Source of the DNA: Caryophanales bacterium
GTDB taxonomy: Bacteria; Bacillota; Bacilli; CAJFEE01
Length of the DNA: 64,000 bases
Direction of reading: 5' to 3'
Assembly (NCBI GenBank): GCA_029256085.1
Contig: JAQSYP010000001.1
Coordinates: forward strand, 310,001-374,000
Position numbers and translations under genes: made by a program. The notes under the pieces are model-generated. The model saw only the letters and a program-made list of their open reading frames with translations, had not been told where the DNA came from and made no database searches. Positions 12,482 to 59,697 of the stretch are shown in pieces (position 1 is the stretch's first letter; each line of letters starts with the position of its first letter).

Positions 12482-12500
12482 AAAAGTAATAAAACTTAAT

Positions 12501-12611
12501 ATATCTTCAGGGCAGGGTGAAATTCCCTACCGGCGGTATAGCCCGCGAGCCATATGGCAGATTCGGTTAAATTCCGAAGCCGACAGTAAAGTCTGGATGA
12601 AAGAAGATAAA
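12501..12611 (+). promoter_or_regulatory. FMN riboswitch (RFN element)
   Basis: The conserved RFN core is intact: the closing stem TATCTTC (12502-12508) with GAAGATA (12603-12609), AGGGCAGGGTGAAATTCCC, CCGGCGGTATAGCCCGCGAG, and the AATTCCGAAGCCGACAGTAAAGTC block. It senses FMN and controls the ribE-ribBA-ribH transcript through the terminator at 12659-12686. The 5' CAGGGC of the aptamer region can pair with the terminator arm, giving the alternative fold. Confidence 0.97.
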
Positions 12612-12658
12612 AACAGTTATTCTACTAATACGTATAGTAGATTATTTATGTTTATTTT

Positions 12659-29653: not shown

Positions 29654-29687
29654 ATAAAAAAAGACTGTACACAAGATTACAGTCTTA
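29654..29687 (-). terminator. Terminator of yqzM
   Basis: On the minus strand AAGACTGTA pairs with TACAGTCTT (29661-29686), followed by TTTTTTTATTT. The stem overlaps the yqzM stop codon region. Confidence 0.85.
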
Positions 29688-29819
29688 TAAATTAATTTCT
29701 TTTATTATTTGAGCAACGATAAAAACGGTTGCGAAGAATCCAATCCATATGAAAAAAGCTACTCCTGAATCTGTTAAGTCATTACTCTTACATTGTACAT
29801 CTTTTTCAAATTCATTCAT
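29685..29819 (-). CDS. yqzM: YqzM family small membrane protein
   Basis: A 44-residue protein beginning MNEFEKDVQCKSNDLTDSG, then a hydrophobic helix (FFIWIGFFATVFIVAQII). The N-terminal sequence and the single helix match YqzM, which is found between comEC and holA in many Bacillus species. GGGGGTGAAG precedes the ATG. Function is unknown. Confidence 0.88.
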   Translation of the reverse strand: MNEFEKDVQCKSNDLTDSGVAFFIWIGFFATVFIVAQIIKEINL

Positions 29820-29865
29820 TTCTTCACCCCCATATATTTAAGTATAAATTAAAATTTAATAGATT

Positions 29866-30043
29866 TGTGTAGCGATAATGTGAATAAAAACATTGTCAAG
29901 CTATAGTTACACATATGAATGTTGCGTTGTGTCAAACTATTTTCACAGACGCAACAATCGTTAAAGTTTAAGTATCCTAGGACTTAAACTTTGACGTTGA
30001 CATAGATGCGAGGGAACTACTATTGTAGTTCCTTCTTTAATTT
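29866..30043 (+). ncRNA. Candidate structured RNA between yqzM and holA
   Basis: Four consecutive hairpins occur within 178 bases. 1: TAGC-GATAATG (29870-29880) with CATTGTC-AA-GCTA (29891-29903), extended by TGTGT/ACACA. 2: GTTGCGT-TGTG (29921-29931) with CACA-G-ACGCAAC (29944-29955). 3: CGTTAAAGTTTAAGT (29959-29973) with ACTTAAACTTTGACG (29982-29996), 15 bp with one G-U. 4: GGAACTAC (30013-30020) with GTAGTTCC (30025-30032), then TTCTTTAATTT, terminator-like. The T-rich tail sets the plus strand. No open reading frame uses the region and I do not match it to a known family. It could be a small RNA or a holA leader. Confidence 0.5.
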
Positions 30044-30121
30044 ATGAAGCTTTCTTTACATATTTTAAAATCAAACATAAAATAAAATAGCATATTGTAT
30101 TTACGAAAGAGGATGAACTAA

Positions 30122-31114
30122 TTGGCTGATAATCATAACATTATTTTATTATATGGTCTAGAAAATTACATTATTAATGAACGCATTAATTTTTACACTA
30201 ATAAATTTCTGTCAGAAGAAGATAAAGAATTTAATCTGATTACTTATGATATGCAAGAAACTGTTATTAGCGCAGCAATTGAAGATGCTGAAACAATGCC
30301 GTTTTTTGGAGATTATAAAGTAATTATCTTAAGAAACTGTAAATTTCTGACTGGTGAAAAACAGAAAATAGAACAAAATCTCGATATATTAATTAACTAT
30401 ATAGAAAACCCATCACCTTTTACGATTCTTATTCTAGAAACTCCAAATGAGAAATTAGATGAAAGAAAAAAGGTAGTAAAAAAACTTAAAGAATTAGTTA
30501 AGGTTCACGAGTGTAATCAATTGAGTATACAAGAGGTTGAAAATTGGATTCTGCGAGAGTGTCAAAAAAATGGTGTTAAAATTTCTAATGAAACAATTAA
30601 TAAAATTATTGATCGAGTTGGACAAAACATTACTAACTTAAAAAATGAACTACAAAAGTGCTTTTTATATCTACATAATGAACAGGAAAAAGTAATTACA
30701 GATGAATTAATTAACTTGATAATGTCAAGATCTTTAGAGGACAATGTATTCGTATTAACAGATTACATTACAGCATATAAAGTAACCGATGCGCTTCAAG
30801 CCCTCGCTGACTTAAGAAAGCAAAATATTGAAGCCCAAATTATAGTAGGTGTATTAGCTGGACATTTACGACTACTTTTGCAAGTTAAGACGTTAATGGA
30901 AAAAGGGTACGCACAAAACCAATTAATGAATATGCTAAATTTAAAACCTTTCCGATTAAAGAAAGCAATGCAAATTGTTCAAACGAAAAAGCTAGAAGAA
31001 TTAAAACTGTGGCTAATGAAGTTGTCTGAGGTAGATATGGGGGTAAAGAGAGGACCAAATAGCCCGTATTCGTATATAGAATTATACATCTTATCTTTTG
31101 GTAAAGGTAAATAA
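30122..31114 (+). CDS. holA: DNA polymerase III delta subunit HolA (YqeN)
   Basis: A 330-residue clamp-loader wrench subunit, an AAA+-like protein that opens the sliding clamp. The N-terminal half has NIILLYGLENYIINE and MPFFGDYKVIILRN; the C-terminal part has the collar domain (IIVGVLAGHLRLLLQVKTL). Start is TTG at 30122 after AGAGGATG. It is followed by a shared terminator with rpsT. Confidence 0.92.
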   Translation: MADNHNIILLYGLENYIINERINFYTNKFLSEEDKEFNLITYDMQETVISAAIEDAETMPFFGDYKVIILRNCKFLTGEKQKIEQNLDILINYIENPSPFTILILETPNEKLDERKKVVKKLKELVKVHECNQLSIQEVENWILRECQKNGVKISNETINKIIDRVGQNITNLKNELQKCFLYLHNEQEKVITDELINLIMSRSLEDNVFVLTDYITAYKVTDALQALADLRKQNIEAQIIVGVLAGHLRLLLQVKTLMEKGYAQNQLMNMLNLKPFRLKKAMQIVQTKKLEELKLWLMKLSEVDMGVKRGPNSPYSYIELYILSFGKGK

Positions 31115-59461: not shown

Positions 59462-59499
59462 TATTAGTAAAATTTCAACTAAGTATATATTTAAAATGT

Positions 59500-59697
59500 G
59501 TAATGATAGAAAAGAGTACAGACAAGCCTTTATATAAGCGAACCTAGGATAGTGAAAGCTAGGCTATAAAGATGTTTGGAAGGCGTTCTTGAACACATAA
59601 TTAAGTGATTCTAGCTAAGCTAGAATAATTAGGGTGGAACCGCGGGTAACTCTCGTCCCTATTGCATTTTGCAATAGAGATGAGAGTTTTTTATTTT
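59500..59697 (+). promoter_or_regulatory. Glycine T-box leader of glyQ-glyS
   Basis: A T-box riboswitch. Stem I has the GAACCTAGG/AGCTAGG arms; a GGC codon at 59582-59584 (glycine) is the likely specifier; the T-box sequence AGGGTGGAACCGCG (59630-59643) is perfect. The terminator AACTCTCGTC... with GATGAGAGTT ends in TTTTTTATTTTT. It reads uncharged tRNA-Gly and permits readthrough into glyQS when glycine is short. Confidence 0.93.

Follow-up and report, generated by a model that had tools for sequence, protein, structure and literature searches.

This report concerns the gap between yqzM and holA in a stretch of 64,000 nucleotides (nt) from a Caryophanales bacterium (assembly GCA_029256085.1, contig JAQSYP010000001.1, positions 310,001 to 374,000 of the forward strand), hereafter called the window. 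An initial annotation of the window had placed in this gap a single candidate structured RNA made of four hairpins. We find that half of this feature represents a real RNA family, one not included in Rfam 15. We consider it rather probable that this is an uncatalogued family of independent small RNAs of about 90-100 nt, encoded by spore-forming Bacilli in the gap that separates comEC/yqzM from holA, probably expressed in the forespore and dimerising. For the more specific proposal, a new family of forespore-expressed bacterial small RNAs that work as kissing-loop homodimers and whose loop is held self-complementary by selection through repeated compensatory changes, we regard the chances as even. 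As judged from sequence, a hairpin (P1), a linker and a second hairpin (P2) are conserved, the P1 loop is self-complementary, the position is beside holA, occurrence is confined to genomes with the sporulation marker SpoIVA, and a promoter pattern of sigma-F/G type is present in about half of the members.

Conserved hairpins and covariation

All four annotated hairpins are found in the window, and region 29840-30060 folds at -70.5 kcal/mol as compared to -38.8 +/- 4.1 kcal/mol in dinucleotide shuffles (z -7.67; 0/200 shuffles as stable). That the RNA is structured and lies on the plus strand, as annotated, was borne out. Regarding hairpin sizes, the third is indeed a stem of 15 base pairs (bp) with one G-U pair, whereas the first, second and fourth, annotated as stems of 11, 11 and 8 bp, have the different dimensions given in Table 1. 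Folding is pronounced both in the P2 region (30005-30045, z -6.37) and over the predicted RNA (29946-30043, z -7.43). Hairpins 1 and 2 of the window are also more stable than chance (z -5.0), but no structure is seen in the corresponding stretch of four relatives (z +0.84, -0.66, +0.52 and -0.04), and these two hairpins were therefore rejected as part of the RNA. The conserved unit consists of the third and fourth hairpins only, which are P1 and P2. Since hairpins 1 and 2 lack conservation and coincide in part with the predicted promoter, the annotated unit of about 180 nt does not hold and the RNA is predicted to be about 95 nt long.

Plain DNA similarity leads to only one other genome (G001), because the stems diverge. 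The match there also lies just upstream of holA, and the counterpart of the third hairpin has the same loop as the window (GTATCCTAGG) on a stem with different but mostly compensating bases. The family architecture was read from the regions upstream of holA in the 30 best holA homologues and is seen in most of them. It comprises a P1 hairpin of 14-15 bp, a loop with a palindromic hexamer, the linker GUUYAUAUARAU and the sequence-variable, usually GC-rich P2. Even with its variable sequence, the P2 region is significantly folded in 90% of members.

The covariation check in orthologous gaps that the initial annotation had proposed gave a strong signal, with compensatory changes at 12-13 of the 14 P1 pairs. 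Among 19 sequences, 12/14 pairs changed on both sides (score 0.655 as compared to 0.237 when shuffled); among 84 distinct sequences it was 13/14 (0.694 as compared to 0.233 +/- 0.013 when shuffled and <=0.16 in slid controls; the slid controls favour the structure, because P1 was drawn from the same sequences). The 84-sequence alignment (A5, 86 rows) was fitted to a covariance model and is biased towards the model structure; the covariation results of the MAFFT alignments A3 and A7 agree. A5 includes one likely false member, L122 (genome G295), which has no holA within 1 kilobase (kb), was treated as chance and was left out of alignment A6 and of covariance model R2. A6, and hence R2, has two antisense artefacts among its 92 rows. 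The P1 of the window scores 57.2 bits with R2 and likewise 57.2 bits with model R1.

Neither the feature of the window nor ten relatives matched Rfam 15 at the gathering score, in keeping with the annotation's statement that no known family was recognised, and relaxed E-values gave chance-level matches only. We found no description of this RNA family in the literature searched.

The self-complementary loop of P1

A perfect 6-nt palindrome stands at the centre of P1 in 90 of 104 distinct members, as compared to 17.2 (maximum 30) for shuffled loops and 11/74 for P2. P2 served as the control in place of hairpins elsewhere in the loci, which are invalid for this purpose because a perfect inverted repeat always contains a palindrome. 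The hexamer is spelled CCUAGG in 44 members, CCCGGG in 22, UCUAGA in 15, GGGCCC in 5, UCCGGA in 2 and otherwise in 2. Its positions covary: pair 3-4 has 57 cases of UA and 28 of CG, and pair 1-6 has 68 of CG, 9 of UA and 7 of UG. The layout of the loop, with 2-3 nt before the hexamer and 1 nt after it, is kept by 81/89 members of one set. Several of the exceptions to the palindrome are G-U versions. L016 (2607-2665) has an enlarged loop (CCTACGGCTAGGG), as though an insertion had split the palindrome.

The family thereby shares with kissing-loop homodimer RNAs an apical loop whose self-complementarity is conserved and covarying. The hexamer changes in sequence but stays symmetric, as expected if each loop pairs with a second copy of itself. 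The self-complementarity of the loop implies loop-loop homodimers, and dimerisation is predicted on this ground.

Distribution, promoters and genomic setting

Of 399 Bacilli genomes, roughly a quarter have the RNA according to covariance models, 98 with R1 (E<=0.1) and 94 with R2 (E<=0.05). A further model, R3, added divergent members, among them a family whose loop reads GGGCCC and a Paenibacillus-like genus that has UUCUAGAA. There is one copy per genome, in a single orientation relative to holA. Downstream on the same strand, holA is present in 47/48 members checked, the contig of the remaining one ending too early, and in 16/16 R3 matches checked; the linkage was not imposed in the whole-genome searches, though holA-linked sequences had served to train the models. 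The distance to holA is usually 75-300 nt, with 390 nt in L073 and 629 nt in L181, and in genome G048 the copy (L175, 1060-1112) lies about 1.2 kb upstream of holA rather than adjoining it. Weak secondary matches away from holA (G098:C12, G210:C11 and G246) were treated as chance, and pattern matches in Aerococcaceae (L086) and in a Tenericutes contig (L101) were not confirmed by covariance model. No copy of the RNA was found in any genome outside the class in a phylum-wide R2 scan.

Strong R2 matches occur in 89/267 SpoIVA-positive as compared to 0/132 SpoIVA-negative genomes (Fisher p 8e-19, from lists compared by eye and with species kinship ignored). Their occurrence is thus confined to spore formers, but confounded by phylogeny. 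In a SpoIVA-negative genus inside a SpoIVA-positive family, the RNA is absent from 5/5 genomes. The RNA is not essential to sporulation, because many spore-forming families are without it.

Upstream of P1, the sigma-F/G-type promoter pattern ATA-N14/15-GG..A...TA is present in 46/87 members as compared to 0.38 in shuffles. Because this pattern was chosen after reading the sequences, control genes weigh more than the shuffle. With AT[AG] at its start, it is found in 9/21 promoters of the sigma-F/G gene gpr, taken as positive control, and in 3/90 holA-side and 1/90 antisense controls. The copy in the window matches the family pattern in position and spacing, is one base off it (T for the first G) and predicts an RNA 5' end near 29946. 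Brevibacillus-like members (L029, L106, L114 and others) have a different conserved upstream block, GGCACC-N-GCGTANNGTA...CAAGCACCCCCTGC, perhaps for another sporulation sigma factor. Directly 5' of the -35 element, Geobacillus/Anoxybacillus-like members (L020, L027, L070 and others) carry a dyad, TGACAAnAGTTGTCA, possibly a regulator site, which is partially present at 29906-29915 of the window.

Table 1. Features of the yqzM-holA region, in positions of the window
Feature	Position	Strand	Description
yqzM	29685-29819	-	Identity from gene order and the naming of the initial annotation
Hairpins 1 and 2	29866-29959	+	Present in the window, not conserved, overlapping the predicted promoter; probably outside the RNA
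Hairpin 1	29866-29913	+	16 bp with 8-nt bulge
Predicted sigma-F/G-type promoter of the RNA	29911-29939	+	ACATA (29911-29915), 14-nt spacer, TGTCAAACTA (29930-29939)
Hairpin 2	29917-29959	+	About 12-14 bp with bulges
Predicted small RNA	29946-30043	+	About 95-100 nt; ends inferred from promoter match and P2
Hairpin 3 (P1)	29959-29996	+	15 bp, one G-U; conserved with compensatory changes
Loop hexamer	29976-29981	+	CCTAGG, palindrome; proposed loop-loop dimer contact
End of P1 and single-stranded linker	29995-30007	+	CGTTGACATAGAT; family consensus CGUUYAUAUARAU; near-invariant columns in alignments A3 and A7
Hairpin 4 (P2)	30010-30035	+	11 bp, then TTTAATTT
P2 and T-rich tail	30010-30043	+	Intrinsic-terminator-like; terminator scan calls a T-tailed hairpin at 30010-30035
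Sigma-A-like holA promoter	30055-30083	+	TTTACA, 17 nt, TAAAAT; downstream of the RNA
holA	30122-31114	+	DNA polymerase III delta subunit; homologues in 397/399 Bacilli genomes

On the minus strand just upstream of yqzM (about 29820-29865) there is a conserved promoter-like block for this gene (TAGATT, 17 nt, TATACT in relatives). Elsewhere on the plus strand of the window, a flavin mononucleotide (FMN) riboswitch (12499-12612) and a T-box leader (59494-59663) score above the Rfam gathering score; both are ordinary.

Alternative readings and relation to known RNAs

The initial annotation had offered either an independent small RNA or a leader/attenuator of holA, and the independent RNA fits best. 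A cis-acting leader, starting upstream of P1 and using P2 as a conditional terminator for read-through into holA, seems unlikely to us. Such a role would suit the fixed position and strand upstream of holA, the often weak U-tails after P2 and a report from Bacillus amyloliquefaciens FZB42, in which the yqzM RNA overlaps the 5' untranslated region of holA (PMC4634765). However, a sigma-A-like holA promoter pattern follows P2 in 37/90 members, about 40% and including the window (3.2 in shuffles), so that the RNA looks like its own unit. The leader is also made less likely by the copies about 1.2 kb (G048) and 629 nt (L181) away from holA. Antiterminator pairing between P1 and P2 was not noticed, though no systematic search for it was made.

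Slightly less likely still is an independent monomeric small RNA, whose loop palindrome would pair with another RNA carrying the same palindrome or bind a protein. Self-complementarity is as far as the sequence itself goes, and a monomer would accommodate it. Yet the symmetry is kept across CCUAGG, CCCGGG, UCUAGA, UCCGGA and GGGCCC. Binding of a protein at a fixed site would not require this, and a separate partner RNA would have to change in step with the loop each time, whereas self-pairing needs no second locus. An inverted repeat acting at the DNA level, as operator or recombination site, is very improbable: the central palindrome and the dyad conserved just upstream in some lineages would fit it, but the stem varies freely with compensatory changes, unlike an operator, the element is kept in one copy per genome and one orientation relative to holA, and a conserved linker, on one side only, and a terminator-like hairpin come after it.

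As a dimerising small RNA, the element would be transcribed in the forespore by RNA polymerase carrying sigma-F, sigma-G or either of the two, and its transcript would end at P2. Two molecules would pair through their P1 loops, each with 2-3 nt, the 6-nt palindrome and 1 nt, and the dimer would display the linker GUUYAUAUARAU twice, for contact with a protein or with target mRNAs. The RNA would act in trans and not on holA in cis, the trans role being the least certain step.

Several observations weigh against a forespore-expressed, dimerising RNA. The loop palindrome is imperfect in some members and missing in L181 and L189, and the U-tail after P2 is often short. About half of the members, including the window with its one-base deviation and the Brevibacillus-like and Paenibacillus-like groups, are without the exact promoter pattern. 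The link to sporulation suffers from the phylogenetic confounding described above, and no R3 match was obtained in 40 Bacilli that form spores but belong to other families or genera. Moreover, the member sequences are phylogenetically related and the counts are not independent events.

We rate the RNA as a new family of a known kind, the sporulation-linked small RNA, unusual in a loop that is kept self-complementary. It belongs to no Rfam family. In the way it would work, it comes closest to CsfG for predicted expression and to the retroviral dimer-initiation hairpin for predicted contact. In the latter, a loop with unpaired bases flanking a 6-nt palindrome pairs with a second copy. The P1 loop has a similar geometry; the comparison is one of working principle only, between elements of unrelated origin, and the bacterial dimer is predicted. 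CsfG is encoded at a different locus, ylbG-ylbH, and it is by locus that the candidate is set apart from it. CsfG (Marchais et al. 2011) is a small RNA of the forespore in bacteria that form endospores, and the candidate family would share its sigma-F/G promoter class, the pattern being present in about half of the members. Bvs196 (S547) of Bacillus velezensis is also linked to sporulation and has a predicted sigma-F/G promoter as well as an intrinsic terminator (PMC9147052); this small RNA is a different gene, of 294 nt and between hinT and ecsA. S962 of Bacillus subtilis is catalogued as an independent transcript that runs antisense to yqzM and comes after the comE genes, as a transcribed segment only, without structure, ends or function (PMC7317962). 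S962 may include the B. subtilis copy of the RNA.

So far, few small RNAs have been described from the developing spore, and for CsfG no mRNA target is known, as summarised in PMC9147052. The fixed place of the RNA beside holA in many spore-forming families, among them species with tractable genetics, makes the function of a spore-stage RNA directly testable. If true, selection on the loop for self-pairing would make this bacterial small RNA an unusual and clear example of homodimerisation that can be read from sequence alone.
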